Source: Muribaculaceae bacterium (GTDB lineage Bacteria; Bacteroidota; Bacteroidia; Bacteroidales; Muribaculaceae). Taken from it: a DNA stretch of 12,968 nucleotides. The stretch spans positions 1 to 12,968 of the forward strand of contig JAIDTS010000114.1 of the NCBI GenBank assembly GCA_029060585.1, read 5' to 3'. Under the pieces are notes generated by a model. The model did not search any database. It saw only the letters and a list, made by a program, of their open reading frames with translations, and was not told the origin of the DNA. The position numbers were made by a program, and so were the translations under genes. Below, one piece after another: positions 1-12,968 of the stretch; position 1 is the first letter of the stretch, and every line of letters starts with the position of its first letter.

Positions 1-30
1 CTTTGAACATTTCCACATATCTATATATTA

Positions 31-76
31 AAGGCCGGAGACCGCGACTGTCACCTCGCGGTCCCCGGCCTTTTTT
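31..76 (+). terminator. Rho-independent terminator of an upstream gene outside the window
   Basis: A long GC-rich hairpin is visible. GGCCGG (33-38) pairs with CCGGCC (65-70), then after one A/C mismatch GACCGCG (40-46) pairs with CGCGGTC (57-63), leaving a loop of about ten bases. The right arm runs straight into six T residues (71-76), and the AA before the left arm can pair with the first two. This is a textbook intrinsic terminator reading on the + strand. The gene it ends lies to the left of the window. It isolates the following gene from upstream transcription. Confidence 0.9.
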
Positions 77-91
77 CATCCCCCTCCCCCG

Positions 92-107
92 TCCTGCGAG
101 CAAAGCC
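92..107. repeat. 16-base direct repeat, left copy flanking the AAA-ATPase-like gene
   Basis: The sequence TCCTGCGAGCAAAGCC occurs here and again, identically and in the same orientation, at 1747-1762. A C-rich run preceded by a TTC/CAT-like stretch lies before both copies (about 75-91 and 1733-1746), so the repeated unit may be an imperfect 30 bases or so. The two copies bracket the first gene together with its promoter. No third copy was seen in the window. The role is unknown; a cassette boundary or a dispersed intergenic repeat are both possible. Confidence 0.8.
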
Positions 108-117
108 AGCACTATGA

Positions 118-149
118 TTTGCATATTCACATAAAAATAGTTATATTTG
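118..149 (+). promoter_or_regulatory. Bacteroidetes-type promoter for the AAA-ATPase-like gene
   Basis: TTTG at 118-121 and TATATTTG at 142-149 match the -33 (TTTG) and -7 (TAnnTTTG) elements of the main Bacteroidetes sigma factor, with 20 bases between them, which is the usual spacing. Transcription would begin a few bases after 149, giving a leader of roughly 10-15 bases before the ATG at 169. Both boxes and the spacing fit, so this is the best promoter in the window. Confidence 0.8.
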
Positions 150-168
150 CAGAAAATATCCGAAAAAC

Positions 169-1728: not shown

Positions 1729-1746
1729 AATTTCTCATTCCCCCCA

Positions 1747-1762
1747 TCCTGCGAGCAAAGCC
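1747..1762. repeat. 16-base direct repeat, right copy flanking the AAA-ATPase-like gene
   Basis: This is an exact second copy of TCCTGCGAGCAAAGCC, beginning 18 bases after the stop codon of the AAA-ATPase-like gene and preceded, like the left copy at 92-107, by a C run. After the repeat the two contexts diverge. The arrangement brackets a gene plus promoter in about 1.67 kb. Confidence 0.8.
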
Positions 1763-1784
1763 GCTGACACTACGAGCTAATCTC

Positions 1785-1822
1785 ACTCTCCCCCAGGGGG
1801 TAGAGTGGACCTACACATAGGT
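1785..1822. other. Two adjacent small hairpins in the intergenic region
   Basis: ACTCT plus five C (1785-1794) is complementary to five G plus AGAGT (1796-1806, with T1801 unpaired), separated by a single A, so in practice the central pairs must open to form a loop. Immediately after it ACCTA (1809-1813) pairs with TAGGT (1818-1822) around the loop CACA. No T tract follows the first stem, so it is not a standard terminator; the second is followed by ATTTTA. This lies in the 222-base gap between the AAA-ATPase-like gene and the envelope cluster and may end transcription from the former, or be part of its repeat unit. Confidence 0.5.
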
Positions 1823-1893
1823 ATTTTATGGTCAAATTGGCACAAAATAAAGACTTTTTATGTAAATACCGCTGAAATTTTGGAATATTTTAC

Positions 1894-1901
1894 TAATTTT
1901 G
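1894..1901 (+). promoter_or_regulatory. Probable -7 promoter element for the envelope cluster
   Basis: TAATTTTG matches the Bacteroidetes -7 consensus TAnnTTTG, in an AT-rich stretch upstream of the first barrel gene. A TTTG at 1879-1882 is too close (11 bases) to act as the -33 box, and no good -33 box is visible at the normal distance, so the call rests on the -7 match and the position. Transcription would start near 1907, which leaves about 40 bases of leader before the ATG at 1951 and argues against the earlier ATG at 1909. Confidence 0.55.
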
Positions 1902-1950
1902 CGTTTTAATGGATATACGGATTATCAATTTCCGACATTCTAACCCAAAT

Positions 1951-2697
1951 ATGAAGAGATTCCACACTTTATTGATATTGCTGACATTCCTTGTCTCCGC
2001 CACGCCTTTCAGGGCGCTTGCGGAAGAGGAAGAGTTCTCGCCCGATTTCGAATCGGTGGTCTTCGTGCCGAAAGGACAGTGGATCACCGGCATCAGCGTG
2101 TCATACGACCAGTCCAACCAGAAAAACTACCAGTTTCTTGTGCTCCAGGGAGTTACGGGCGACACGTACTCCTTCAAACTTTCCCCCATGCTGCTCTATG
2201 CGTTCAACAACGACATCGCGGCCGGCGGAAAGTTCGGATACAACCGTAGCCTCACAAAACTCGAAAGCGCGGAGATAGCTCTCGACCCAGATATGGGTTT
2301 TGATTTCGACCACCTCTACCGCCTCTCACACAGCTACCACGGAATGGCGGTGCTCCGCAACTACTTCTCGCTTGGAAAATCACAACGGTTCGGCATCTTC
2401 ACTGAAGTGCAGCTCGACCTCGGAGGAGGGCAATCCAAACTGATGACCGGACTCGGAGAAGACCTCACAGGAAACTACGAACGCAACTTTAACCTCGGAA
2501 TAGGCGTGGCTCCCGGCATGTCGGTATTCCTCAACAACTTCTCCGCACTGGAGGTAAACGTCGGAGTGCTTGGCTTCGACTATAGCCACACAAAGACCAT
2601 CACCGACCAGATTTACGTAGCGAACAGAAACACTAAATCAGCCATCTTCAGGGTGAACCTCTTCTCGATCACCTTCGGAGTAACATTCTACCTATGA
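1951..2697 (+). CDS. Outer-membrane beta-barrel protein (first of two tandem paralogues)
   Basis: This 248-residue protein begins with a signal peptide: MKRF, a hydrophobic stretch LLILLTFLV, and a likely cleavage after A24 in FRALA, leaving an acidic EEEE start. The mature part (about 37-248) alternates polar and hydrophobic residues in short strands, such as QWITGISVSY and TYSFKLSPMLLYAF, and ends in FGVTFYL, as expected of a small outer-membrane barrel. It cannot be assigned to a named family with certainty. The next gene has a C-terminal domain of almost the same length and motif order, so the two are paralogues. The ATG at 1951 is chosen over the in-frame ATG at 1909 because it starts the signal peptide directly, and 1909 would sit almost at the predicted transcription start. 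The stop codon overlaps the next start as ATGA. Confidence 0.8.
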   Translation: MKRFHTLLILLTFLVSATPFRALAEEEEFSPDFESVVFVPKGQWITGISVSYDQSNQKNYQFLVLQGVTGDTYSFKLSPMLLYAFNNDIAAGGKFGYNRSLTKLESAEIALDPDMGFDFDHLYRLSHSYHGMAVLRNYFSLGKSQRFGIFTEVQLDLGGGQSKLMTGLGEDLTGNYERNFNLGIGVAPGMSVFLNNFSALEVNVGVLGFDYSHTKTITDQIYVANRNTKSAIFRVNLFSITFGVTFYL

Positions 2698-4040
2698 AAA
2701 CAAGAGCCAAATCCATACTGACAACGACGGCGTGCGCGCTCTCTCTGCTCGCAGCCCAGACCTCGGCGGCGGCTCCTGTAAAGGCTCCGGCCAATTCCGA
2801 TCCGGAGAAGGCAGACACTCTCGTCTATTCCGCCACCAAGAGCCTCATAGAATCGTTCGGAGAACTCTCCAAAACCGCAAACAAGCTTTCCGAAACCGCC
2901 CTCAAGCTGCTCGAGGCACAGGAAAGCCTCGATGCAAAACGTAACGGACAGTCTCCAGGTAAGGGAACCGCGCCCGTTCATAAAAGCGGCGACACAACCA
3001 CCACGATCAAGGAAACTTCACGCGAGGCGATTTCAATCGTCGAAGCATCGTCGATGCCGGCTTCCAGCCTTACGGAAATAGCCGAAGAGACCATCGCCAT
3101 CAGCAACGACATCGCTGCTCAAAGCACTCCGACGGTGCGAGACACGGTATACATCACCGTCCGGGATACTATCAACCAATCAGTATGGTATCTTCCCGAA
3201 GAGAACCGCGAAGGGGGACAGTATCTGTGGATTCCCGATGGCAACATCTCCGACGTTGAGTCTGTCCTGACTGGAAAGGCTCCTCAGCTGCAGAGTAAGC
3301 CGGACCTCTCCGAGATGACCTACTGGCGCGGTGACTCCATCCCTATGGCCCTTCCGACAAAACGCCTTGGACGCTACGACCGCAAGCTATACAACTGGCT
3401 CATATACCCGAAGGGACTATGGCACATAGGACTTACAGCCAACTATGGCGAGCTCAACACCGAAGACATGGAGATCCTTACCCTCATCAACGATATTGAC
3501 CTGAAGGGAAAGATCTACAGCATCAAGCCATCAGTCAGCTATTTCCTGCGCAACAACCTCTGCGTCGGAATGCGACTCGCATTTACAAAGGGAGACATGG
3601 CCGTCAACTCTTTCAAGGTCGACATCGACGAAGATATGAGTTTCGACCTACACGATATCAAGTATACCTCCGATTCCTATTCTGCCGCTGTATTCCTGCA
3701 GCAGTATTTCGGACTGAGTCGGCGCGGACGGTTCGCAGTCTTCAATGAGGCTGAGGTCTCGATCGGAACCGGAAGCTCGCATTTCATACGCCCGTTTGAC
3801 GGAAATATCCGCGATACCCGCACTAAAACACAGACATTCAACATCAACTACTCTCCGGGCGTCAGTATCATGATGATGAAGAACGCAGCCTTCAACCTTT
3901 CCTTCGGCATCTTCGGATTCCATCTGAAAGACGAGAAACAATGGGAAAACGGAGAGGAATCGGGAAGTAGGTTCACAAGCGGAATCAACTTCCGCTTCAA
4001 CCTCTTCAACATCAACTTCGGAGTATCAATCATAATATGA
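2694..4040 (+). CDS. Outer-membrane beta-barrel protein with long periplasmic N-terminal extension
   Basis: This 448-residue protein has a signal peptide with probable cleavage near residues 25-27 (AQTSAAA). Residues about 36-85 are helical and possibly coiled-coil, with regularly spaced hydrophobic residues (for example SLIESFGELSKTANKLSETA). A Thr/Ser-rich linker follows, and a short internal repeat, VRDTVYI then VRDTINQ, at 148-162. From about 235 to 448 there is a barrel domain matching the preceding protein in order: YPKGLWHIGL, a strand pair, a YFGLSRRGRFAVFNEAEV segment, SPGVSIMM, FGIFGF, and a terminal FNLFNINFGVSIII. The extension could span the periplasm or hold a partner; that is inference. 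Translation is probably coupled to the upstream barrel through the ATGA overlap, and the PCMD lipoprotein follows after 7 bases. Confidence 0.8.
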   Translation: MKTRAKSILTTTACALSLLAAQTSAAAPVKAPANSDPEKADTLVYSATKSLIESFGELSKTANKLSETALKLLEAQESLDAKRNGQSPGKGTAPVHKSGDTTTTIKETSREAISIVEASSMPASSLTEIAEETIAISNDIAAQSTPTVRDTVYITVRDTINQSVWYLPEENREGGQYLWIPDGNISDVESVLTGKAPQLQSKPDLSEMTYWRGDSIPMALPTKRLGRYDRKLYNWLIYPKGLWHIGLTANYGELNTEDMEILTLINDIDLKGKIYSIKPSVSYFLRNNLCVGMRLAFTKGDMAVNSFKVDIDEDMSFDLHDIKYTSDSYSAAVFLQQYFGLSRRGRFAVFNEAEVSIGTGSSHFIRPFDGNIRDTRTKTQTFNINYSPGVSIMMMKNAAFNLSFGIFGFHLKDEKQWENGEESGSRFTSGINFRFNLFNINFGVSIII

Positions 4041-4047
4041 AAAACAC

Positions 4048-5640
4048 ATGAAGACAAGACTATTCAACATATTGCTTCCGATAGCCATGATCGGGGCCGC
4101 GGGATGCATCCACAACGACCTCCCATACCCCAGGCTGCAGCAAAACATACTGACCATCGCGGCAAAGGGCGAACTGAGTCCGGCTAAAATAGATTCCGCA
4201 GACTTCACAGTCAAGCTTGTCCTCGACGAGGAGGTAGACATACAGGCCGTGCAGTTCACGGATTTTACTTACACTCCGGGAGCCGAATGCAACAAGGATC
4301 TGCTACGAGGCACATGGGACCTCTCTGTGCCGATGACTGTCGAGCTTAAGCTCTACCAGAGCTACCAATGGATGATAACGGCCGAGCAGAATATAGAACG
4401 TTACTTCACCGTAGCGGGTCAGATCGGCGAGAGCGTCATCGACGCTGTCGGAAGACGCATCATCGTCAGCATGCCGGAAAAGGCCGACCTCTCGAAAGTG
4501 GAGGTCACATCTATAAAGCTGGGACCAAGGGAGATTTCCACACTTACTCCCGCCGTGCCGGAAGGATCTTACATAGACCTCAACTCTCCGTTCCGGGTAG
4601 ACGTCAGCGCATGGGGACGCACCGAAGACTGGACCATCTACGCCCAGAGGACCGAACAGGTGGTGACTACCACGGCCGTCGACCCCTGGAGCATGGTGGT
4701 GTGGGCATATGGCGAGGGTCCGGCAGACGCCACGAATTACTTCGAATACTGCGAGGATGGAACCGACACATGGGTTCGCGTTCCCGACGACGACACTTCA
4801 GGAAAGGATGGTGCCTTCAGCTGCTGCATCAAACATCTGAACCCCCTCACTAAATACACGGTGCGAGCATGCAGCGACGACAACAAGGGAAATGAGATCA
4901 CAGTTACGACTCAGGCTACAGAGGTACTTCCCGACGGAGACTTCGAACAGTGGTGGAAGAACGGCAAGATATGGTGTCCCTGGGCCGAAGGCGCGGAGCA
5001 GTGGCCTGCAGGTGGACGATTCTGGGATACAGGCAACACCGGCGCCGCTACACTGGGTGAAAGCAACGTGAAACCATCCGATTACGTGCCGGCAGGACTC
5101 ACGGGCCAGTCGGCGGAACTGAAAACAGAGTTCAAGGGAATCGCAGGTATCGGCAAGCTCGCTGCCGGATCCATATTTACAGGAAGTTTCAAGAAAGTGG
5201 ATGGTACCAACGGTATCCTCGACTTCGGACGCCCATGGACAGTGAGACCGACGAAACTGAGAGGCTACTATCAATACACCAGCGGAGAGATCAACTACTC
5301 CAACAAAGAGATGGAATACCTGAAGGGTCGTCCCGACACATGCTCCATCTATATAGCGATGACAGACTGGACCGCTCCTTACGAGATACGTACGAATCCC
5401 AACAACCGTCAGCTCTTCGACAAAAACGCAAGCTATGTGATCGGCTATGGGCAGCTCGAACGAGGTAGCACCATGGAGAGCTACGAGGAATTCGAGATCA
5501 AGCTTGAATACAAAAGCACCTCCATCGTGCCGCGATATATAATGATCACTTGCGCCTCCTCAAAATACGGTGATTATTTCACGGGATCATCGTCGTCGGT
5601 GCTCTACGTCGACCAGTTCTCTCTCGATTACGATTATTGA
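4048..5640 (+). CDS. PCMD domain-containing lipoprotein
   Basis: This 530-residue protein starts with a lipoprotein signal: MKTR, a hydrophobic core, and the lipobox GAAGC with C20 as the lipidated residue. The residues after C20 (IHND) are only weakly acidic, so whether it is exported to the cell surface is uncertain. Residues about 30-205 look like two small beta-rich modules, the second around IIVSMPEKADLSKVEV; a further Ig/Fn3-like module covers about 207-290. The C-terminal part, from LPDGDFEQWW (about 294) to the end (SVLYVDQFSLDY), fits the PCMD family (PF13201, putative carbohydrate metabolism domain), which is usually found at the C-terminus of Bacteroidetes lipoproteins. A sugar-binding or glycan role is suggested only by the family name and the beta-sandwich look. 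It is packed directly behind the two barrel genes and is probably co-transcribed with them. Confidence 0.8.
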   Translation: MKTRLFNILLPIAMIGAAGCIHNDLPYPRLQQNILTIAAKGELSPAKIDSADFTVKLVLDEEVDIQAVQFTDFTYTPGAECNKDLLRGTWDLSVPMTVELKLYQSYQWMITAEQNIERYFTVAGQIGESVIDAVGRRIIVSMPEKADLSKVEVTSIKLGPREISTLTPAVPEGSYIDLNSPFRVDVSAWGRTEDWTIYAQRTEQVVTTTAVDPWSMVVWAYGEGPADATNYFEYCEDGTDTWVRVPDDDTSGKDGAFSCCIKHLNPLTKYTVRACSDDNKGNEITVTTQATEVLPDGDFEQWWKNGKIWCPWAEGAEQWPAGGRFWDTGNTGAATLGESNVKPSDYVPAGLTGQSAELKTEFKGIAGIGKLAAGSIFTGSFKKVDGTNGILDFGRPWTVRPTKLRGYYQYTSGEINYSNKEMEYLKGRPDTCSIYIAMTDWTAPYEIRTNPNNRQLFDKNASYVIGYGQLERGSTMESYEEFEIKLEYKSTSIVPRYIMITCASSKYGDYFTGSSSSVLYVDQFSLDYDY

Positions 5641-5706
5641 CGGGTTAAACTTTTATATCCTTTAGATTGTCTAAGATAAAAGTAAACTCCTTCAAAGACA
5701 AAAAAG

Positions 5707-6411
5707 ATGAAAAAGACAAGCATTCTCAAGATGGCGCTCGCAGCCATAGCACTCTCCTGCTCCACCGCCGCATTCGCGGACCCTACCCCCTCACCCGACC
5801 TCAAGGATATCCTCGGAGGTGCCGGAGGCGCGCTGGGCAACATAGTGGAAGGTGTGTTCACAAAGACAGACCTGACTGTGGAGGACATAGCCGGAGAATG
5901 GACCTCTACAGGCTCAGCCGTGACATTCCAGAGCGATAACTTCCTCAAAAAGGCAGGTGGCTCCGCCGCTGCTGGCGCCGTTGAGAACCAGCTCGACGAA
6001 TATTATAAGAAATTCGGACTTACAGGGGCAGTACTCGAAGTAGACACTGCCGGCAACTTCACCCTGAACATCAAGCGACTCCCCATCAAGGGAACCCTCG
6101 AAGTGAAAAGCAAGGGTATATTCAAATTCAACTTCAACGCCGGAGGTCTGGTGAAGCTGGGAAGCATGGACGCTTACGTGGAAAAGACTCCAACTGGTAT
6201 CAACGTAATGTTTGACGCCGATAAAATCAAGAAGATCATGACCCTCGCTGCTACTATCAGCGGCAGCAAGATGGTCTCGACTGCCGACAAGCTCCTGAAG
6301 GAATACGACGGTATCTGCATCGGCTTCAAGATGAAAGGACAGTCTGCCGCTCCCGCCGGCAACACTGTAAACGATGCCGTAAATTCCCTAAAGGGCCTTT
6401 TCGGAATGTAA
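5707..6411 (+). CDS. DUF4923 family secreted protein
   Basis: This 234-residue protein has a clear signal peptide, MKKT plus a hydrophobic core, with probable cleavage after A24 in AAFA before DPTPSP. A cysteine at 18 sits in a poor lipobox (ALSC), so a lipoprotein form is possible but less likely. After a short Pro/Gly-rich segment, the body from LTVEDIAGEWTSTGSAVTF (about 58 on) fits DUF4923 (PF16270), a Bacteroidetes family with a lipocalin-like look: a GEW motif near the start, then repeated strands such as GNFTLNIKRLPIKGTLEVK and GIFKFNFNAGGLVKL. Its function is unknown. It lies 66 bases after the PCMD gene; only a weak 5-bp hairpin (5661-5675) occurs in the gap, so it may be co-transcribed. 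Riboflavin synthase follows after a 33-base repeat array. Confidence 0.75.
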   Translation: MKKTSILKMALAAIALSCSTAAFADPTPSPDLKDILGGAGGALGNIVEGVFTKTDLTVEDIAGEWTSTGSAVTFQSDNFLKKAGGSAAAGAVENQLDEYYKKFGLTGAVLEVDTAGNFTLNIKRLPIKGTLEVKSKGIFKFNFNAGGLVKLGSMDAYVEKTPTGINVMFDADKIKKIMTLAATISGSKMVSTADKLLKEYDGICIGFKMKGQSAAPAGNTVNDAVNSLKGLFGM

Positions 6412-6413
6412 AT

Positions 6414-6441
6414 ACTTAATACTTTATACTCAATACTTTCT
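6414..6441 (+). repeat. Heptad array 1 (four 7-base units) before ribE
   Basis: Four 7-base units begin at 6414, 6421, 6428 and 6435, and every one starts with ACT; examples are ACTTAAT and ACTCAAT. The last four positions vary among A, T and C. The array fills almost the whole gap between the DUF4923 stop codon and the GTG start of ribE, and is followed only by AAA. It shares period, phase and placement with arrays at 7055-7096 and 8581-8622. Its role is unknown; it could affect translation initiation or simply be a replication-slippage product. Confidence 0.75.
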
Positions 6442-6444
6442 AAA

Positions 6445-7053
6445 GTGTTCTCAGGAATAGTAGAAGAAGCGGGCGAAGTGGTCCGCATAGAAAGAGAAGG
6501 AACCAACGTCAACATCACGATGAAGTGCTCCTTCACAGACGAACTCAAGATTGACCAGTCGGTGGCCCACAACGGCGTATGTCTGACTGTAGTGAGCCTG
6601 CCCGGTGACGGCACATATACCGTGACTGCCGTCCAGGAGACTCTCGACCGCTCCAACCTCGGCAATCTCAAACCGGGAATGCTCGTCAATCTCGAACGAT
6701 CGATGAAGATGAACGGCAGGCTCGACGGCCATATTGTGCAAGGACATGTCGACACTACCGCGGTTTGCACCAACGTAGAGCCGCTCGACGGCAGCTGGTA
6801 TTACACCTTCCGCTACGCTTTCCGTCCGGAGATGGCAGCGAGAGGATATGTGACGGTTGACAAAGGTTCAATAACTGTCAATGGCGTCTCTCTGACAGTC
6901 TGCGACCCCAAGGCCGACAGTTTCAGAGTAGCCATCATACCCTACACCCACGACCACACCAACTTCAAGGAGATCGAGGCCGGAACAAAAGTTAACCTCG
7001 AATTCGACATCATAGGCAAATACATAGCCCGTATCTCATCCCTCTCCAAATAA
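6445..7053 (+). CDS. ribE: Riboflavin synthase (alpha subunit)
   Basis: The enzyme joins two molecules of 6,7-dimethyl-8-ribityllumazine to give riboflavin and a pyrimidinedione, the last step of riboflavin synthesis, in the cytoplasm. The 202-residue length is normal. Two lumazine-binding repeats are visible: the first with MFSGIVEE at the N-terminus and NGVCLTV at 43-49, the second with NGVSLTV at 146-152. GHIVQGHVD at 95-103 is the conserved join between them. The start is GTG, fixed by the family's invariant N-terminus (MFxGIxE), because no ATG gives that beginning. No Shine-Dalgarno is present; instead a 7-base repeat array ends three bases before the start. No other riboflavin gene is in the window, so it is separated from the rest of its pathway. 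Confidence 0.95.
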   Translation: MFSGIVEEAGEVVRIEREGTNVNITMKCSFTDELKIDQSVAHNGVCLTVVSLPGDGTYTVTAVQETLDRSNLGNLKPGMLVNLERSMKMNGRLDGHIVQGHVDTTAVCTNVEPLDGSWYYTFRYAFRPEMAARGYVTVDKGSITVNGVSLTVCDPKADSFRVAIIPYTHDHTNFKEIEAGTKVNLEFDIIGKYIARISSLSK

Positions 7054-7054
7054 A

Positions 7055-7096
7055 ACTCAAGACTGAAGACTCAAGACTGAAGACTGAAGACTGAAC
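7055..7096 (+). repeat. Heptad array 2 (six 7-base units) before the AAA-DUF4435 gene
   Basis: Six 7-base units begin at 7055, 7062, 7069, 7076, 7083 and 7090. The first four alternate between ACTCAAG and ACTGAAG, the fifth is ACTGAAG and the last is ACTGAAC. The array starts one base after the ribE stop codon and ends four bases (AACC) before the next ATG at 7101, so it occupies essentially the whole gap. It is the most regular of the three arrays. A two-unit (14-base) higher repeat is visible at its left end. Confidence 0.9.
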
Positions 7097-7100
7097 AACC

Positions 7101-8540
7101 ATGAAACCAATCCAGCTACCCCCAGATAGCGCCAGCTCATCCGCCTATAATGATACTCCGCCGCGTCAAAGACGCCAGGCCCGACTTTATACGCTGCTTG
7201 GTGGAAATGGTAGTGGAAAATCGCTCTTCATGAATGAAATAGCTGCGCTTAACCCGGAAGATGCATACGCAGTCTCGGCAGTCACGGGAGGTATGCCCGG
7301 AAGAGTCACGGGATCGCTGCAGCAACTTATGACCGTGCTTTCCCTCGAAGAGGAGAAGGCGCGGTTTCGTGTTCTAAAGGAAATATGGGAGGAAACCTTC
7401 CCGGGCAATACGATATACACAGAAAAGGGAAAGGCCAAGATACGAAACCGTTCGGGGAAGGACTCGATAAGCATACGCTCGCTCAGCCGGGGTGAGAAGG
7501 CCGCACTCTACTATATAGCCGCGACACTTCTCGCTCCGCAGGGTGCGCTCATCCTCGTAGACTCCCCTACGCTCTTCCTGCACCCAACGGCCATAGGGAT
7601 ACTATGGGACCGTATAGAACGCTCTCGGAGCGACTGCCGATTCGTCTACGACACCTACGACCCCAATTTCAGTTCGGGACAGGCACGACGCACAGCAATC
7701 TGGATAAAGGACTATGACGCCGCTGAGCACTCCTGGCGCTACCAGATAATCGCAGACGGAGAACTCCCCGACGAAATCTTCCTACAGATGATGGGGAGCC
7801 GCAGACCGATCCTCTTCACGGAAGGAGATACCTCCCATAGCATCGATATGAGACTCTACAGCGTCGTCTTCCCCGAATTCACCGTAAAACCCCTCGGCAG
7901 CTGCGATAAAGTGATCGAATCTACCCGCACAATGCAGTCGCTACGCTCTATGCACCGCATAGAAAGCTACGGACTCGTAGACCGAGACCGGAGGAGTGAG
8001 CAGGAAGTTGAATACCTCCGCGCAAAACACATTCTCGTACCGGAAGTAGCGGAAGTCGAAAACATTTTCCTCGCTCCAGGAGTGGTGGAAACTATGGCGG
8101 AAATACGCAACCGCAACCCGAAGAAAGTGCTCAAAGCCGTCAGGCAGGAAGTGATGCACAAGTTTGAGCAGATGCTCGAAAGTCAGGCACTCCAGCACAC
8201 GCGCCACAGGATGAAGCGAGACGTAGAACGAAAAATCGATGCCCGTTTCACATGCATCACCGCTCTTGAGCTACACATCAAAAGCCTTATAAAGAAACTC
8301 AAGCCACGCGAGACCTACGACCAGCTCGCTGCAGTATTCCGCAGGATGGCTCGCGGAGGAGACTACGAAGGAGTGTTGAGGGTCTTCAACCACAAGCCTA
8401 TGTTTACCGGCAGCTGCGTAGCCAAGGCACTGGGATATTCAAACATCGACGAATACGTAAACGGAGTGATCGGCGCCATGAAGCACGGCGACCAACAGGC
8501 CGAACAGCTGCGGCAGGAAATACGCAAGCTATTCTCCTGA
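7101..8540 (+). CDS. Fused AAA/ABC-type ATPase and DUF4435 (TOPRIM-like) protein
   Basis: This 479-residue protein has two parts. Residues about 28-215 form a compact ABC-type ATPase: Walker A GGNGSGKS (34-41), signature LSRGE (128-132), and a Walker B-like ILVDSP (151-156) followed by LHP. The usual glutamate after the Walker B aspartate is serine (S155), and the histidine of the later TH switch appears to be replaced (TYD near 185-187). Residues about 235-330 resemble DUF4435, a TOPRIM-like domain: LFTEGD with E241, LVDRD with D294 and D296, and EVEN (318-321). The remainder is basic and helical. The combination is that of OLD nucleases and of the PARIS defence pair AriA (AAA) and AriB (DUF4435), but the ATPase part is shorter than in those and the setting is housekeeping. 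Function is therefore open: nucleic-acid processing, defence or repair. Confidence 0.75.
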   Translation: MKPIQLPPDSASSSAYNDTPPRQRRQARLYTLLGGNGSGKSLFMNEIAALNPEDAYAVSAVTGGMPGRVTGSLQQLMTVLSLEEEKARFRVLKEIWEETFPGNTIYTEKGKAKIRNRSGKDSISIRSLSRGEKAALYYIAATLLAPQGALILVDSPTLFLHPTAIGILWDRIERSRSDCRFVYDTYDPNFSSGQARRTAIWIKDYDAAEHSWRYQIIADGELPDEIFLQMMGSRRPILFTEGDTSHSIDMRLYSVVFPEFTVKPLGSCDKVIESTRTMQSLRSMHRIESYGLVDRDRRSEQEVEYLRAKHILVPEVAEVENIFLAPGVVETMAEIRNRNPKKVLKAVRQEVMHKFEQMLESQALQHTRHRMKRDVERKIDARFTCITALELHIKSLIKKLKPRETYDQLAAVFRRMARGGDYEGVLRVFNHKPMFTGSCVAKALGYSNIDEYVNGVIGAMKHGDQQAEQLRQEIRKLFS

Positions 8541-8580
8541 CTCCGCAACAATACCCCGCGCCTGAGTGTTTTTATGATAT

Positions 8581-8622
8581 ACGTTTCACGCACCACGCGC
8601 TACGCATTACGCATTACGCACT
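8581..8622 (+). repeat. Heptad array 3 (six 7-base units) before glgB
   Basis: Six 7-base units begin at 8581, 8588, 8595, 8602, 8609 and 8616, each starting with ACG; the two central units are both ACGCATT, and others include ACGCACC and ACGCGCT. The array ends 13 bases before the glgB ATG at 8636, and A-rich sequence follows. The rest of the 95-base gap (8541-8580) shows no hairpin and no convincing promoter. The unit sequence is unlike arrays 1 and 2, yet the period and the leading AC are the same. Confidence 0.8.
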
Positions 8623-8635
8623 AAAATCCATATAT

Positions 8636-10804
8636 ATGGCCCGCAAGAAAAAACAACTCGAAATCCTACGCAACGACCCTTGGCTCGAACCGTTCGAGGA
8701 AGCCATCGTCGGTCGACATGAAGACGCTGTTCGGAAAATAAAGGAGATTACCGCCGACTCTGGCTCTCTCTCGAAATTCGCCGACGCATACGATTATTTC
8801 GGACTTCACCACGAAAAGGACGGCAGCTGGACCTTCCGCGAATTCGCGCCTAACGCAACCTCGATACACCTCATCGGAACATTCGATGACTGGAAACTCA
8901 ACGACGACTACAAGCTCAGCCCTGTTGGGGACAGCGGATCGTGGGAGTTAAAGCTTCCCGCCGACAAGCTTCATGACGGAGACCTCTACAAGATGTTCGT
9001 CACATGGAAGGGTGGACAGGGAGAGCGCATCCCTGCATATGCGACAAGAGTAGTGCAGGACGAGGAGACCAAGATATTCAGCGCGCAGGTATACGCTCCG
9101 GAACATCCATATGAATTCAAAGTAACCGACTTCGTTCCCGATACGAAGCCACTGCTCATCTACGAATGTCATATCGGCATGGCGCAGCAGGAGGAAAAGG
9201 TAGGCAGCTACGAGGAATTCCGCACTAAAATACTACCCCGCATCGCGGCCGACGGCTACAACGCTATCCAGATAATGGCCATACAGGAGCATCCTTATTA
9301 CGGTTCGTTCGGCTACCACGTCAGCAGTTTCTATGCAGCCTCGAGCCGTTTCGGCACTCCCGATGACCTTAAGCGCCTCATTGACGACGCGCATGAACTT
9401 GGAATAGCCGTGATAATGGATATAGTGCATAGCCATGCAGTTAAAAATGAAGTGGAAGGTCTCGGACGCCTCGACGGTAGCTACGACCTTTACTTCAACA
9501 GCGGCGACAGACGCGAGCACCCGGCTTGGGACTCATTGCTGTTCGACTACGGAAAAAACTACGTGCTCTACTTCCTTCTGAGCAACTGCAAGTTCTGGCA
9601 GGAGGAATACAGATTTGACGGTTTCAGATTCGACGGCGTCACATCCATGCTTTATTACGACCATGGACTCGGGAAGGCATTCGGTGGATATCAGGACTAT
9701 TATGACGGCAACCAGGACACCAACGCAATCGTCTATCTTACGCTCGCCAACATCCTTATCCACGAGGTGAACCCCAACGCCATCACCATAGCCGAGGAAA
9801 TGAGCGGAATGCCGGGACTCGCCGTAAAATTCAAGGACGGCGGCATAGGATTCGACTACAGAATGGCAATGGGAATCCCCGATTACTGGATCAAGATGAT
9901 AAAGGAGAAGAAAGACGAGGACTGGCATCCCACATCAATATTCTGGGAACTCACAAACCGTCGCGCCGACGAGAAAACCATCTCTTATTGCGAGAGCCAT
10001 GACCAGGCCCTCGTGGGAGACAAGACCATAATCTTCCGCCTCATCGACAAAGAGATGTACTGGCACATGATGGACGGAGACAACGATTTCACCGTGGAAC
10101 GCGGCATGGCGCTCCATAAGATGATCCGCCTTGTGACACTCGCAAGCATCAACGGAGGATACCTAAACTTCATGGGTAACGAGTTCGGACATCCGGAATG
10201 GATCGACTTCCCGCGTGAGGGTAACGGCTGGAGCCACAAGTACGCCCGCAGGCAGTGGGACCTCGTAGACCGCGAAGACCTCAAATACAAATACCTCAAC
10301 CGCTTCGACAACTCAATGGTCGGGCTGGTGGAAAAACAATACAATTTCCAGGCAAAACCTGTAGAGAAACTTTGGGAGAAAGACGACGACCAGGTGCTCG
10401 CCTTCAAGCGAGGCGACCTTATCTTCGTCTTCAACTGGAGTCCTAACCAGTCGTTTCCCGACTATGGCTTCCTCGCTCCGGCCGGGGAATACGAGGTGGT
10501 ACTCGACTCTGACTCTCCGGAATTCGGCGGACACGGCCTCATTGACGACAGCGTGCACCATTTCACCACCCCCGACCCACTCTACTCGCCAGCCGGAAAG
10601 GGATGGCTCAAAATGTATATTCCGGCGAGGACTGCCCAGGTGCTCCGCATGGTGAAGCAGCGCCCTGCCCGCAAGCCCGCTACCGCCAAGGCAGAGACCG
10701 TCAAGCCGAAGACAGAGGCTTCGCCGGCAAAGAAGGCTTCGGCAAAGGGAAAGGTGCCTCCCCAAAAGAGCTCATCGAAAAAGACCACAACAAAGAAGAA
10801 ATGA
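8636..10804 (+). CDS. glgB: 1,4-alpha-glucan branching enzyme (eukaryote-like type) with basic C-terminal tail
   Basis: The enzyme cuts an alpha-1,4 glucan chain and transfers the piece to form an alpha-1,6 branch in glycogen. The 722 residues hold an N-terminal CBM48-like module (about 50-150, with FREFAPNATSIHLIGTFDDW), a GH13 catalytic barrel (about 170-560) and a C-terminal all-beta domain to about 672. The four GH13 motifs are intact: DIVHSH (D262), FRFDGVTSM (nucleophile D333), IAEEMSGMP (acid/base E387) and ESHDQALVGDKT (D456). These sequences resemble animal and plant branching enzymes more than the E. coli type, as is common in Bacteroidetes. Unusually, residues about 676-722 form a Lys/Ala/Thr/Ser/Pro-rich tail like that of histone H1, ending in TTTKKK. 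The stop overlaps the cmk start as ATGA, so translation is probably coupled. A 7-base repeat array lies in the leader. Confidence 0.95.
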   Translation: MARKKKQLEILRNDPWLEPFEEAIVGRHEDAVRKIKEITADSGSLSKFADAYDYFGLHHEKDGSWTFREFAPNATSIHLIGTFDDWKLNDDYKLSPVGDSGSWELKLPADKLHDGDLYKMFVTWKGGQGERIPAYATRVVQDEETKIFSAQVYAPEHPYEFKVTDFVPDTKPLLIYECHIGMAQQEEKVGSYEEFRTKILPRIAADGYNAIQIMAIQEHPYYGSFGYHVSSFYAASSRFGTPDDLKRLIDDAHELGIAVIMDIVHSHAVKNEVEGLGRLDGSYDLYFNSGDRREHPAWDSLLFDYGKNYVLYFLLSNCKFWQEEYRFDGFRFDGVTSMLYYDHGLGKAFGGYQDYYDGNQDTNAIVYLTLANILIHEVNPNAITIAEEMSGMPGLAVKFKDGGIGFDYRMAMGIPDYWIKMIKEKKDEDWHPTSIFWELTNRRADEKTISYCESHDQALVGDKTIIFRLIDKEMYWHMMDGDNDFTVERGMALHKMIRLVTLASINGGYLNFMGNEFGHPEWIDFPREGNGWSHKYARRQWDLVDREDLKYKYLNRFDNSMVGLVEKQYNFQAKPVEKLWEKDDDQVLAFKRGDLIFVFNWSPNQSFPDYGFLAPAGEYEVVLDSDSPEFGGHGLIDDSVHHFTTPDPLYSPAGKGWLKMYIPARTAQVLRMVKQRPARKPATAKAETVKPKTEASPAKKASAKGKVPPQKSSSKKTTTKKK

Positions 10805-11490
10805 AGAAGATCACAATAGCTATCGACGGATTCAGCTCGAGCGGCAAAAGCACTATGGCGAAGCAGCTCGCTAAAAAAATCGGATATGTATACGTTGACA
10901 GTGGCGCGATGTATCGCGCTACTACACTCTATGCCATCCGCCACGGAATGACCTCGAAGGAACGAGGGGTAGACACCGAGTCGCTCATAGCCGCCCTGCC
11001 TGACATCCACATATCTTTCATCATCACACCGGAGGAGACACAGCACACGCTGCTCAACGGAGAGGATGTAGAAAAGGAAATCCGCGGAATGGAAGTCAGC
11101 GGGTGGGTAAGTCCGGTGGCAGTAATCCCGGAAGTTCGCCATTATCTCGTCGGGCTCCAGCAGCAATATGGCAAAGATAAGGGTATAGTAATGGACGGGC
11201 GCGACATCGGCACCACTGTGTTCCCTGACGCGGAGATGAAGGTCTTCGTGAAGGCAAGTCCCGAGGTAAGGGCCCGAAGACGCTTCGATGAGCTCATCGA
11301 GAAGGGAACTCCCTCTGACTATGAAGCCGTGCTCGCCAACATCAAGGAGCGCGACCATATCGACACCACCAGGAAAGAATCACCGCTTCGCAAGGCCGAC
11401 GATGCGTTCGAGCTTGACAACGACAACCTGACGAGGGAGGAGCAGATGGAAGTGCTCGTCAAACTTTTCGAGGATAAGACACGTGGCTAA
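10801..11490 (+). CDS. cmk: (d)CMP kinase
   Basis: Cytidylate kinase phosphorylates CMP and dCMP with ATP, recycling pyrimidine nucleotides in the cytoplasm. The 229-residue length is typical. Visible motifs are the P-loop GFSSSGKS (10-17), the CMP-binding DSGAMYRA (33-40) and DGRDIGTTVFPDA (132-144), followed by an Arg-rich lid region (RARRRFDEL, 157-165). The ATG at 10801 is chosen because the protein then begins MKKITIAIDG, as in the family; the frame is open upstream for 66 more codons through the glgB tail, but that stretch looks like nothing known. It overlaps glgB by 4 bases and ispH by 8. The cmk-ispH neighbourhood is common in bacteria. Confidence 0.95.
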   Translation: MKKITIAIDGFSSSGKSTMAKQLAKKIGYVYVDSGAMYRATTLYAIRHGMTSKERGVDTESLIAALPDIHISFIITPEETQHTLLNGEDVEKEIRGMEVSGWVSPVAVIPEVRHYLVGLQQQYGKDKGIVMDGRDIGTTVFPDAEMKVFVKASPEVRARRRFDELIEKGTPSDYEAVLANIKERDHIDTTRKESPLRKADDAFELDNDNLTREEQMEVLVKLFEDKTRG

Positions 11491-12379
11491 GATAGAGATC
11501 GACAACGGCAGTGGCTTCTGTTTCGGTGTGACCACAGCCATATCCAAGGCGGAAGAGGTGCTGGAGCGGAAGGGTGTGCTCTATTGCCTCGGCGATATCG
11601 TGCACAACGCCGGAGAAGTGGAGCGTCTCCGCAAGAAAGGACTCATAACGGTAGACCATGAGGAATTCGCCAAACTTCACAACGTCAAGGTGCTGTTGCG
11701 TGCACACGGCGAGCCCCCCTCCACATATGAGACGGCGCGCCGCAACGGTATCGAGATAATTGATGCGACATGTCCCGTGGTGCTACAGCTCCAGAAACGC
11801 ATCAAGGACGCCTATTCCAATCCCGCGGAGCCTGTAGGAGATCCGGCAAAGGATCCCCTGATACTCATATACGGAAAACCGGGACATGCCGAGGTGAACG
11901 GACTCGTTGGGCAGACGGAAGGAAGCGCGGTCGTGATTCAAGACAAAGCCGACCTCGACACACTCGACCTTGACCGCGACATCTGGCTCTATTCCCAGAC
12001 CACGAAATCTATCGAAGGGTTTCAGGAAATAGTGGCCGAGATCAAGTCGAGAAAGAAAAAAGGTTCGTTCCAGTGGTTTGATACGATCTGCCGCCAGGTT
12101 GCCAATCGTATGCCACGGATGCGTGACTTCGCTGCGGGACATGACGTCATATTGTTTGTCTCAGGAGCAAAGAGCAGCAACGGAAAGGTGCTCTACGCGC
12201 AATGCAAGGAAGTGAATCCGAAGACTTATCTGATCACCGACGAAACCGAATTGAACCCCGCTTGGATAGAGGGAGCCTCAAGCATTGGTATATGCGGCGC
12301 TACCTCCACACCGAGATGGCTGATGCAGAAAGTTGCCGAGGCCTGCGCTAAAGACCAGGAAGATGACGCCGAAGAATGA
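11483..12379 (+). CDS. ispH: 4-hydroxy-3-methylbut-2-enyl diphosphate reductase
   Basis: IspH (LytB) is the iron-sulfur enzyme of the last step of the MEP isoprenoid pathway, converting HMBPP to IPP and DMAPP. The 298-residue protein has the three cluster cysteines, C13 in GFCFGV, C97 in DATCPVV and C203 in FDTICRQV. Substrate-pocket residues are also present: H41 in DIVHN, H75 in RAHGE, H135 and E137 in GHAEVNG, and SSN at 231-233. The start is GTG at 11483, inside the last codons of cmk (8-base overlap), giving MAKIEIDNGSGFCFG; this is supported by the correct distance to the first cysteine. The C-terminus is short and acidic (DQEDDAEE). It overlaps tadA by 17 bases. Confidence 0.95.
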   Translation: MAKIEIDNGSGFCFGVTTAISKAEEVLERKGVLYCLGDIVHNAGEVERLRKKGLITVDHEEFAKLHNVKVLLRAHGEPPSTYETARRNGIEIIDATCPVVLQLQKRIKDAYSNPAEPVGDPAKDPLILIYGKPGHAEVNGLVGQTEGSAVVIQDKADLDTLDLDRDIWLYSQTTKSIEGFQEIVAEIKSRKKKGSFQWFDTICRQVANRMPRMRDFAAGHDVILFVSGAKSSNGKVLYAQCKEVNPKTYLITDETELNPAWIEGASSIGICGATSTPRWLMQKVAEACAKDQEDDAEE

Positions 12380-12809
12380 CGAATACTGGATGAGACATGC
12401 ACTCACGGAAGCAGAACTGGCTTTTGCGGAAGACGAGGTGCCCGTTGGCGCTGTAGTGGTCTGCAACGACAGAATAATCGCACGGGGCCACAACCAGACC
12501 GAAAGACTGACCGACGTAACTGCCCACGCCGAGATGATAGCTATTACCGCCGCGCAGGAAAACCTCGGAGGTAGAGTTCTTCCGGAATGCACGCTATATG
12601 TCACGGTGGAGCCATGCTATATGTGTGCAGGAGCTATAGGATGGTCGAGATTTGGTCGCGTGGTATGGGGGGCCGACGATCCGAAGCGCGGTTTCCATTC
12701 ATATTTTGGCGGTAAATCGCCACTCCACCCGAAGACAAAAGTCAACTCCGGAGTGCTCGCAGAGGAATGCAGCGCCCTGATGAAGAGTTTTTTTCAGAAG
12801 AAGAGATGA
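12363..12809 (+). CDS. tadA: tRNA-specific adenosine deaminase
   Basis: TadA deaminates adenosine 34 to inosine in the anticodon of tRNA-Arg(ACG), widening decoding of CGN codons. The 148-residue protein has the cytidine/deoxycytidylate deaminase zinc site: HAE with ligand H55 and catalytic E57, and PCYMC with ligands C85 and C88. DEVPVGAV (24-31), GHNQTE (42-47) and the DDPKRG segment (105-110) are usual for this family. The ATG at 12363 gives MTPKNDEYWMRHAL, which matches typical TadA N-termini; it overlaps ispH by 17 bases. The ATG at 12390, eleven bases after the ispH stop, is a possible alternative start that would remove nine residues; the earlier ATG at 12333 is inside ispH and adds only unrelated residues. 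It is the last gene of the glgB-cmk-ispH-tadA run. Confidence 0.93.
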   Translation: MTPKNDEYWMRHALTEAELAFAEDEVPVGAVVVCNDRIIARGHNQTERLTDVTAHAEMIAITAAQENLGGRVLPECTLYVTVEPCYMCAGAIGWSRFGRVVWGADDPKRGFHSYFGGKSPLHPKTKVNSGVLAEECSALMKSFFQKKR

Positions 12810-12874
12810 GGGCGACAGCTCAGCGATAAGAAGCACCAAAAGAAAGACATTAATTTATATATCAACGTTTTAAC

Positions 12875-12918
12875 AGATGAGGCAAGCCTAATTAGCTTGC
12901 CTCATCTACTGTTTTGTT
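12875..12918 (+). terminator. Rho-independent terminator after tadA
   Basis: A perfect 13-bp stem is formed by AGATGAGGCAAGC (12875-12887) and its complement at 12895-12907, around the 7-base loop CTAATTA. It is followed by ACTGTTTTGTT, a broken T tract. It is the first strong hairpin after the glgB-cmk-ispH-tadA run and probably ends it. On the - strand the sequence beyond the stem is not T-rich, so it works best in the + direction. The 65 bases between the tadA stop and the stem show no gene. Confidence 0.75.
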
Positions 12919-12967
12919 ACAAAATAATTAAGCGTGTTACAAAATTATTTCATATTTTTTACAAAAT
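12917..12967 (+). repeat. Three spaced copies of TTACAAAAT in an AT-rich region
   Basis: TTACAAAAT occurs at 12917-12925, 12937-12945 and 12959-12967, so starts are 20 and 22 bases apart, about two helical turns. The first two copies share the longer TGTTACAAAAT. Between and around them AAATAATT (12922-12929) and AATTATTT (12943-12950) are also inverted complements. This looks like an operator or promoter region of the next gene, which starts beyond the window. No TAnnTTTG element is seen before the window ends. Confidence 0.55.
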
Positions 12968-12968
12968 A

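Follow-up and report, generated by a model that had tools for sequence, protein, structure and literature searches.

Three of the gaps between genes in a contig of a Muribaculaceae bacterium each contain a tandem array with a period of seven bases, although the arrays do not have a sequence in common (Table 1). The stretch analysed, here called the window, covers positions 1 to 12,968 of that contig. These arrays raise the question of whether they serve the genes that follow them, for example as leaders in translation, or belong to a wider class of repeats that keeps its period and not its sequence.

Heptamer arrays in the window

The original prediction that three 7-base arrays exist was upheld by direct reading, by TRF, which called period 7 for all three, and by shuffle tests. 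In each array gap, the best period-7 score was matched by none of 5000 dinucleotide shuffles (P = 0.0002 each), and the best score at any period from 2 to 13 by none of 1500 shuffles (P = 0.0007 each). For array 2, the TRF score at period 14 (75) exceeded that at period 7 (68), consistent with its alternating units. The AC phase, which had been proposed as a common property of the units, was expected by chance (P = 0.80). AC is the sole dinucleotide common to the three consensus units; however, the point at which a tandem unit is said to begin is arbitrary, and some dinucleotide is common to 79.8% of shuffled unit triples matched in composition, so that the phase cannot be taken as evidence.

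Table 1. Arrays and flanking genes in the window
Feature	Position	Strand	Description
Lipocalin-like domain protein (DUF4923), flanking gene	5707..6411	+	Pfam PF16270, E 1.8e-44
Array 1	6414..6441	+	Four 7-base units: ACTTAAT, ACTTTAT, ACTCAAT, ACTTTCT; AATACTT/AATACTC family; gap between the DUF4923 lipocalin-like gene and ribE
Riboflavin synthase (ribE), flanking gene	6445..7053	+	Two lumazine-binding stretches; Pfam PF00677, E 8.4e-44
Array 2	7055..7096	+	Six 7-base units: ACTCAAG, ACTGAAG, ACTCAAG, ACTGAAG, ACTGAAG, ACTGAAC; ACTGAAG/ACTCAAG family; gap between ribE and the AAA-DUF4435 gene
AAA ATPase with DUF4435, flanking gene	7101..8540	+	Pfam PF14491, PF13304
Array 3	8581..8622	+	Six 7-base units: ACGTTTC, ACGCACC, ACGCGCT, ACGCATT, ACGCATT, ACGCACT; ACGCATT/ACGCACC family; upstream of glgB
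Glycogen branching enzyme (glgB), flanking gene	8636..10804	+	Pfam PF02806, PF02922, PF00128

The arrays were also said to precede start codons, and in the window they end 3 bases (array 1, GTG at 6445), 4 bases (array 2, ATG at 7101) and 13 bases (array 3, ATG at 8636) upstream of one. However, arrays 1 and 2 equally abut stop codons: array 1 begins 2 bases past one at 6409-6411, array 2 a single base past another at 7051-7053. Both therefore occupy the entire intergenic gap. Thus the position holds for the window, but the link with starts is not general (see below). Phase-variation (contingency) repeats differ in unit number among strains and thereby switch a surface gene, whereas the genes beside the present arrays are metabolic or of a function not known; the name glgB was taken from the original prediction and is consistent with the Pfam domains of the product. 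A search for known RNA families found no match in the window at gathering scores. In the region 6300-8750, no sigma-70 promoter-like site was found (2.1 expected), and terminator-like sites numbered two (2.7 expected).

Orthologous gaps in relatives

At the gap between the lipocalin-like gene and ribE, relatives have units that differ from those of array 1. An AATTCTC-type unit is present there in about two copies in locus L009 (sub-threshold as an array), three in L003 and six to seven in L007. The start of the DUF4435 gene is preceded by AAGACT[C/G]AA in L001, L005 and L010, and by AAGACATAA in L003. Units before one and the same start differ among species, and the orthologous gaps of close relatives are frequently without any array. 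The P values for these gaps are uncorrected and based on 200 shuffles each (0.030 for L006 at the gap between ribE and the DUF4435 gene, at most 0.010 for the others listed). Upstream of glgB, 36 alignment columns belonging to array 3 are missing in the four nearest relatives (L001 to L004), whose gap is 62-65 bases, a net gain of 30-33 bases in the window. These comparisons suggest that array 3 arose by a clean insertion of about 36 bases, and that arrays grow out of local seeds.

A class of dispersed arrays in Bacteroidales

The window arrays are part of a large class of intergenic arrays, for the most part not yet described, that have units of 7-10 bases and are dispersed through the genomes of gut Bacteroidales. 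The period-7 probe (ACTN4)x4ACT, for which we estimate a chance expectation of less than 0.01 per genome, matched 118 of the 198 Bacteroidales genomes searched, as well as 14 of the 15 genomes that contain the relative loci compared above. Comparison of intergenic arrays with shuffles showed that tandem 7-base units occur between genes both in the window and in its relatives; in the intergenic DNA of five sampled genomes, only periods 7-10 exceeded a fixed score, which shuffles reached almost never.

Unlinked arrays within a genome frequently have the same unit. Genome by genome, the fraction of unlinked array pairs with an identical unit was 0.089, 0.085, 0.073, 0.139 and 0.055 (5.5-13.9% of pairs), against 0.002-0.010 (0.2-1.0%) for letter-shuffled units and 0.0013-0.0023 (0.13-0.23%) for units drawn from background 7-mers. 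On the other hand, some of the leading array units are themselves frequent background 7-mers (AATTATG and AAAATTC both rank in the top ten). Slippage acting purely at each locus, one of the mechanisms first offered, fails to account for this sharing. By contrast, the idea of a shared generating process that keeps the period and not the sequence was borne out, as such arrays form a genome-wide class in the relatives. Dispersal of one unit through a genome is present in these relatives, from which it would extend to the species of the window. Like arrays were not clustered along 800 kb of the genome G013, and local spread along the chromosome was rejected on this ground. Among the papers listed in literature searches, mostly outside subscription journals, none dealt with 7-10-base arrays as a general feature of Bacteroidales or Muribaculaceae, and two passages of PMC4060949 concerned other matters.

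Placement relative to gene ends

Arrays were assigned to gaps using gene ends from a home-made ORF caller, and start sites are therefore approximate. Arrays lying more than half inside a called gene, containing N, or lacking a called neighbour on one side or both were excluded, as were gaps shorter than 30 or longer than 1000 bases in the main count by gap type. In the Muribaculaceae samples, arrays occupied 159 of 560 co-directional gaps and 17 of 69 convergent gaps (176 of 629 non-divergent gaps in all), as compared with 8 of 73 divergent gaps. The avoidance of divergent gaps was significant over eight settings (P = 0.0002-0.004) and held at four gap caps with the final filters, although it was not seen in the underpowered sample of genome G084 alone (P = 0.10-0.70). 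In a looser and smaller count (gaps up to 1500 bases), the divergent share was not lower (co-directional, 96/342; convergent, 19/47; divergent, 12/47), with 57, 57 and 25 array bases per kb, respectively.

These counts bear on the proposal that the arrays are translation leaders or sites for an RNA-binding protein, which would recruit or replace ribosome-binding functions, as suggested for the TAACTGA repeats of Beggiatoaceae. The positions of the three window arrays and a 2.1-fold enrichment at 5-20 bases upstream of starts (32 of 180 in the Muribaculaceae samples) are in its favour, and TAACTGA repeats in Beggiatoa are placed alike. However, the strongest enrichment was at 0-5 bases past stops (4.1-fold), with a further 2.5-fold enrichment of arrays overlapping stops; arrays are roughly as frequent in convergent gaps, where there is no start, as in co-directional ones, and are least frequent in divergent gaps, where there are two. 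In addition, orientation showed no link with the direction of transcription (P = 0.13 in one test and 0.31-0.77 in another), and, as noted above, units vary between species before the same start. We therefore consider a translation leader, or any spacing tied to starts, unlikely.

The arrays are not placed at random, however. Their orientation was mirrored at gene ends (P at most 0.009 in nine of nine Muribaculaceae settings, including one array per gap, with units identical to their own reverse complement excluded); outside the Muribaculaceae samples, only 12 arrays were available, too few for adequate power. The original prediction held that random distances and strands would reduce the arrays to ordinary slippage repeats. 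Both distance and orientation proved non-random, but the orientation is mirrored at both gene ends and is not specific to starts.

Unit number and origin of the arrays

After subtraction of shuffles, the excess of period-7 arrays with two to six units was 41, 70, 98, 31 and 14, with a peak at four units, and period-8 arrays had a length mode of 29-34 bp. Among period-7 arrays without GG and CC, 60 of 145 have four units. The window arrays have four, six and six. The 32 perfect arrays show no preference for four units; most of them have fewer (22 lie below 28 bp), and the frequency of perfect period-7 runs decays with length. A discrete element of 31-32 bp is hinted at by the length mode, is cast into doubt by the decay of perfect runs, and returns in part as the four-unit mode left after shuffle subtraction. 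Under simple slippage, arrays should become steadily rarer with each added unit, whereas the noise-corrected distribution peaks at four, a point against the preferred reading below.

Our preferred reading, to which we give a probability of roughly 0.55, is that the window arrays are dispersed heptamer repeats produced by tandem duplication together with a copying step, and need no function in translation. The class would consist of arrays whose units have mostly 7 and sometimes 8-10 bases, commonly in about four copies, occupying gaps in many Bacteroidales genomes. An array would be born when a short seed is duplicated in tandem, and would then grow, shrink and be homogenised, as the differences in unit and in unit number at the same orthologous gap indirectly indicate. 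In addition, unit families would be copied into other, unlinked gaps within a genome; the spread is seen in relatives, and for its mechanism our preferred guess is template switching from one array to another as DNA is replicated or repaired. Divergent gaps would be the least tolerant of arrays, and the larger families lie mirror-oriented to the nearest gene end, a polarity for which a neutral model has no ready account.

Alternatively, the arrays might be a gene-boundary element read by its spacing, in which about four 7-8-base units (about 32 bp), mirrored past stops and before starts, are selected whatever their sequence, acting for example on RNA polymerase or on the structure of intergenic DNA. 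The four-unit mode at period 7, the 29-34 bp mode at period 8, the mirror polarity and the avoidance of divergent gaps would all fit such an element, as would the comparable rules of the GGGAATC and GGGGAYT arrays of Xanthomonas and Nostoc, which hold here without GG or CC. On the other hand, the short perfect arrays and the decay of perfect runs argue against it, and no gap requires an array, since the orthologous gaps of close relatives often lack one. We regard this element as rather doubtful.

Mobile elements and other carriers

Another possibility is that the arrays derive, as arms or remnants, from small palindromic mobile elements of the MITE or REP type that a Y1 transposase (RAYT) would move. 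In its favour, like arrays occur as inverted pairs around short cores, and a 90-bp palindromic repeat lies within TTAAGRG arrays of G013. In the final count, however, pairs of like arrays were 15 inverted and 14 in the same orientation, against 23, 8 and 5 tied in an earlier, looser count. We compared the 20 genomes with the highest (ACTN4)x4ACT counts with the first 20 genomes, in handle order, of at least 3.1 Mb without a match of the probe or of its reversed control, which are array-free by that probe only, as three of them (G053, G071 and G109) show period-8 matches of the probe or reversed control. The transposase domain PF01797 was found at 74 bits or more, a cut-off picked post hoc, in 20 of 20 array-rich and 8 of 20 array-free genomes (P = 4.5e-5), and at any score in 20 of 20 and 14 of 20. 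Nevertheless, it was absent from 4 of 15 Muribaculaceae-type genomes (G003, G005, G012 and G015), all of which carry arrays, and RAYT was therefore rejected as the maker of the arrays.

Sharing of flanking DNA, expected of mobile-element arms, was not higher at array gaps (33 of 114) than at array-free gaps (80 of 297) in five samples (G004, 6/42 vs 19/125; G013, 21/51 vs 41/121; G012, 4/13 vs 11/29; G015, 2/6 vs 6/16; the window, 0/2 vs 3/6), and this candidate was also rejected. Only 12 of 60 Y1 loci had a 7-10-base array inside the 2.0-3.4 kb fetched, whereas 30 of 35 loci examined had some repeat common to both flanks, many of them palindromic by eye. The hairpin control excluded G004 and G084 (short contigs, runs of N). 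The arrays resemble REP/RAYT repeats in being dispersed, intergenic and resident in the same genomes; however, repeats near Y1 genes are often GC-rich palindromes, whereas the arrays, those of the window included, consist of 7-10-base units repeated directly in tandem and do not show the combination of a 20-40 bp palindrome with a Y1 transposase gene. A mobile palindromic origin is thus improbable. Reverse transcriptase (PF00078) showed no association with arrays (13 of 20 array-rich and 14 of 20 array-free genomes). Spread by phage was considered and rejected; (ACTNAAG)x3ACT, the one probe used, matched only 14 stretches of a viral collection.

Comparison with known heptamer systems

Long simple sequence repeats with units of 5-11 bases, of which heptamers are the commonest, have been proposed to arise by polymerase slippage (Mrazek 2007, as cited in PMC4679880 and PMC4692102), but slippage alone leaves family dispersal, mirror polarity and the four-unit mode of the present arrays unexplained. 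The 7-base preference in bacterial repeats is a long-standing puzzle that can now be tested in abundant, partly culturable gut bacteria. The STRR sequences of cyanobacteria are heptanucleotide repeats. Like the present arrays, they are short tandem arrays located between genes (PMC2670836), and three repeated heptanucleotides are mentioned for Calothrix (PMC4692102).

TAACTGA direct repeats are known from marine Beggiatoaceae, from some Cyanobacteria and from five Bacteroidetes. Most of those in the Beggiatoa genome face the start and lie directly before start codons, and an RNA-binding site was proposed (PMC4679880). They too are 7-base tandem intergenic units, many just upstream of starts. 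Beggiatoaceae, however, have one favoured unit, whereas Bacteroidales have many, and the Bacteroidales arrays favour stops at least equally. The TAACTGA unit was not found in the window, whose units are of the ACTTAAT, ACTGAAG and ACGCATT types; the family is present in relatives, where ACTGATA/ACTGACA-type arrays occur in G012 and G013. A predominance of start-facing placement was not found in relatives, though the three window arrays do precede starts. Our results also advise against annotating such arrays as ribosome-binding or regulatory leaders.

The closest likeness is to GGGAATC of Xanthomonas and GGGGA(C/T)T of Nostoc, dispersed intergenic heptamers in which some base positions vary, most commonly in four units and in inverted pairs, which on one strand lie close to stops and on the opposite strand close to starts, are scarce between divergent genes, vary in length and sequence between relatives, and whose four units were tied to G-quadruplexes (PMC4692102). 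The Bacteroidales arrays agree in period, variable unit positions, intergenic and dispersed location, mirror orientation, divergent avoidance, inverted pairs and variation among relatives, and G-quadruplex elements would match their period, four-unit preference and placement. However, only 4 of 217 period-7 arrays have four runs of at least three G on one strand, GGG and CCC are absent from the window arrays, and the same layout rules hold in the 145 of 217 arrays that lack both GG and CC. The quadruplex explanation thereby falls away for this set and is highly improbable here. Of 309 arrays with periods of 7-10, the 179 that contain neither GG nor CC likewise obey the rules of gap type and polarity.

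Both earlier studies treated heptamer arrays unit by unit and explained them by the unit in question, as a G-quadruplex (PMC4692102) or an RNA-binding site (PMC4679880). We tentatively raise the possibility that conservation across at least three phyla lies in the layout, namely about four units of about 7 bases, mirrored at gene ends and avoiding divergent gaps, and not in the sequence. Should the A/T-rich arrays of Bacteroidales and the G-rich ones of Xanthomonas and Nostoc be a single phenomenon, its cause is not the G-quadruplex; either its maker would be a copying enzyme blind to sequence, or a factor that reads spacing would select arrays at gene boundaries. Unlike the Xanthomonas and Nostoc heptamers, the Bacteroidales arrays mostly lack G-runs and cannot form G-quadruplexes, comprise many families per genome, extend to periods 8-10, and differ between unit families in the strand that faces outward. 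Thus, the heptamer array as a kind is already known, and its A/T-rich, quadruplex-free form with many families is new.

Arrays in the window

The three arrays of 7-base units described in the original prediction are real, since the period-7 score of each gap was reached by none of 5000 dinucleotide shuffles of that gap. The AC phase common to them, however, is at the level of chance, because 0.798 of composition-matched triples have a dinucleotide in common. The neighbouring genes are unremarkable, coding for a DUF4923 lipocalin-like protein, a riboflavin synthase, an AAA-DUF4435 protein and a glycogen branching enzyme; arrays 1 and 2 start 1-2 bases past the stop codon and finish 3-4 bases ahead of the start codon. 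A function is not needed to explain these three arrays, and none was found.

Arrays of 7-base units in gaps between co-directional genes of the window
Array	Positions	Gap
1	6414-6441	DUF4923 lipocalin-like gene/ribE
2	7055-7096	ribE/DUF4435 gene
3	8581-8622	before glgB

Elsewhere in the window, TCCTGCGAGCAAAGCC is present in the same direction at 92-107 and 1747-1762, on both sides of an AAA-ATPase_like/PD-(D/E)XK gene (169-1728), which looks as if it were a unit bounded by direct repeats.

Distribution, period and unit number

The probe (ACTN4)x4ACT matched 118 of 198 Bacteroidales genomes and 14 of the 15 genomes behind the fetched loci. The three arrays are members of a class, not accidents. 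An equivalent period-8 probe matched 14/20 array-rich versus 1/20 array-free genomes, and together with its reversed control 18/20 versus 3/20, both groups having been picked by their period-7 counts. Five array-carrying genomes were sampled with a fixed score cut-off: all intergenic arrays above it had periods of 7-10, shuffles gave almost none, and two array-free genomes (samples of 100 and 73 kb) gave none. Larger samples at a lower score also gave a few arrays with periods of 3, 4, 6 and 11-13. One genome with no match to the period-7 probe (G109) has several period-8 ACTTCRTA arrays (C12:348006-348136, C27:166942-167000, C27:230092-230150), which suggests that the preferred period is genome-specific.

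By unit number (length 7n+4), the excess of tandem arrays over shuffles was 41 for two units, 70 for three, 98 for four, 31 for five and 14 for six. Perfect arrays, by contrast, were short (22 of 32 under 28 bp) and perfect runs decayed with length, so that the apparent four-unit mode resides in arrays with mismatches.

Orthologous gaps in relatives

Using the DUF4435 protein, we fetched 15 loci (L001 to L015) from Muribaculaceae or near relatives and scored arrays of period 7-10 with a single threshold, counting the window as a row. The states of orthologous sites differed. Arrays were present in 8/15 rows for the lipocalin-ribE gap, 6/15 for ribE-DUF4435 (a sixteenth row, L012, was left unscored, as the genes overlap), 6/14 for DUF4435-glgB, 2/14 for the gap upstream of the lipocalin gene and 0/4 scored rows for glgB-cmk. 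The units also varied: AATACTT in the window, AACCCTT or AACTCTT in L001 and L005, AATTCTC in L003 and L007, and the 9-base GACTAATTA at glgB in L006, L007 and L009. The AATTCTC-type unit has about two copies in L009, too few to score as an array, but three in L003 and 6-7 in L007. In the lipocalin-ribE gap of L015 (9174-9362), a long 9-base array of GTCAGACCT type is followed by a 7-base AATTCTA array.

Array 3 is a clean insertion. In L001-L004, which by path are the nearest four relatives (fork support 94/93, not starred), the gap before glgB measures 62-65 bases and has no array; in the window it is 95 bases long, and the alignment there has 36 additional columns, bounded by GATA and ACTAA. 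ACGCACC or ACGCATC lies about 30 bases upstream in L004 and L003, making a local template for array 3 possible. The ribE-DUF4435 gap gives a different picture: AAGACT[C/G]AA lies ahead of the DUF4435 start in L001, L005 and L010 (L003 has an altered form), which fits array growth from a local seed.

Spread of units and possible mechanism

Unit sharing was counted on pairs of period-7 arrays from the same genome, separated by 2 kb or more. An exact unit was common to 0.055-0.139 of pairs versus 0.002-0.010 for shuffled units; units drawn from array-masked intergenic 7-mers gave 0.0013-0.0023. Some frequent units (AATTATG, AAAATTC) are also frequent background 7-mers (top ten classes), yet AACTCTT, with 15 arrays in G013, ranks only 305 of 1172, and AAACCCT, with 7 arrays, ranks 743. 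Clustering of like arrays was not found along 800 kb of G013. This absence, together with the exact sharing between unlinked arrays, indicates that units spread through a genome, which locus-specific slippage, one of the mechanisms originally suggested, cannot produce. Exact sharing between G004, G012 and G015 (0.076-0.088) was about as high as within each; it fell to 0.017-0.018 between G013 and these genomes, and to 0.001-0.007 with G084 (null 0.002-0.005). With one mismatch allowed, G084 exceeded the null against G004 (0.114 vs 0.043) and G015 (0.127 vs 0.048). The unit families are thus lineage features common to several Muribaculaceae.

Slippage or template switching may make arrays grow, and their units would be spread by a step that copies from one locus to another. 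A Y1 transposase (RAYT, PF01797) is an unlikely array maker. These genes correlate with array-rich genomes at a post hoc cut-off, but they are missing from four array-carrying genomes (G003, G005, G012, G015), and of 60 Y1 loci retrieved just 12 have an array nearby. Several of the Bacteroidales Y1 genes among L180-L239 are flanked by short GC-rich palindromes, e.g. TCCCGTTAGGGA and AACCCCGAAGGGGT, resembling REP/RAYT systems, and in L230 (G091) a 340-base repeat with a 7-base array inside lies on both sides of the Y1 gene.

Placement and orientation

In Muribaculaceae samples (1.75 Mb in all), arrays were present in 159/560 co-directional, 17/69 convergent and 8/73 divergent gaps; the shortage in divergent gaps (P = 0.001 against the rest) persisted in eight settings that varied the gap cap and the slack (P = 0.0002-0.004), but G084 by itself gave no significant result. 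In a smaller preliminary count with looser filters, the divergent drop showed in array bases per kb only, not in gap share. Among gaps of 100 bases or more, random placement was exceeded 2.1-fold by arrays 5-20 bases before starts and 2.5- to 4.1-fold by those overlapping stops or at most 5 bases past them. The predicted link to starts is not general, and stops are favoured at least as much.

In the larger families, coding-strand orientation at starts was opposite to that at stops: AATTCAT in G004 was 0 sense/9 antisense at starts and 9/2 at stops, and CTTAACC in G013 14/1 and 3/10. Other families showed this weakly or not at all (AATTCAA in G013, 11/6 and 9/7). The mirror statistic exceeded the null in 9/9 Muribaculaceae settings (P from <0.0003 to 0.009), whereas consistency with transcription direction never did (P = 0.31-0.77; 0.13 in another test); outside Muribaculaceae, with 12 arrays only, the mirror test was not significant.

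Inverted pairing of like arrays in one gap is frequent, but not a rule (15 inverted versus 14 same-direction pairs in the Muribaculaceae set). AATTCAT arrays are inverted around short cores at G004:C12 11343-11418 and 13530-13612, G004:C16 50619-50766 and G012:C163 3889-4019; some cores have GCGTAGC in common, and the core CTAAAGCAAGTCATAAT recurs between species. In G013 (L066-L085), a dispersed palindromic repeat of about 90 bp with ends AATGTC...GACATT (e.g. 123974-124063, 361856-361945) lies between TTAAGRG-type heptamer arrays in 6/6 full-length matches, and some partial matches lack them (e.g. 74758, 158946, 270837). Period-8 arrays of GGTTATAA type in G013 (e.g. 87178-87209, 306618-306652) often adjoin a perfect hairpin, whose pairing is kept while its sequence varies by site; a script found it at 7/16 arrays (one an N-run artefact) versus 69/1887 controls.

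Comparison with known heptamer repeats

PMC4692102 describes heptamers of Xanthomonas and Nostoc as mostly of four units, with inverted pairs, lying on the sense strand within 50 bp of a stop or on the antisense strand upstream of an ORF, and scarce between divergent genes, and links the four units to G-quadruplexes. Our polarity and gap-type results predate our knowledge of these placement rules; the four-unit and inverted-repeat remarks were known earlier. Placement and orientation are alike, but G-runs are mostly missing from the Bacteroidales arrays: GG/CC was absent from 145/217 period-7 arrays, and only 4/217 had four G-runs of three. The GG/CC-free period-7 arrays still had a mode of four units (60/145). 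Those of period 7-10 (179/309) occurred in 2/73 divergent versus 113/629 other gaps (P = 0.0003) and kept the mirror polarity (101 arrays, P = 0.001). In the set studied, the layout thus does not require quadruplexes. TAACTGA-type repeats have been noted in five Bacteroidetes, accompanied by other heptamer repeats in two or three of them, according to PMC4679880. This kind of repeat is therefore already known; as far as our literature searches reach, its breadth in Bacteroidales, its A/T-rich, many-family form and its quadruplex-free layout are new.
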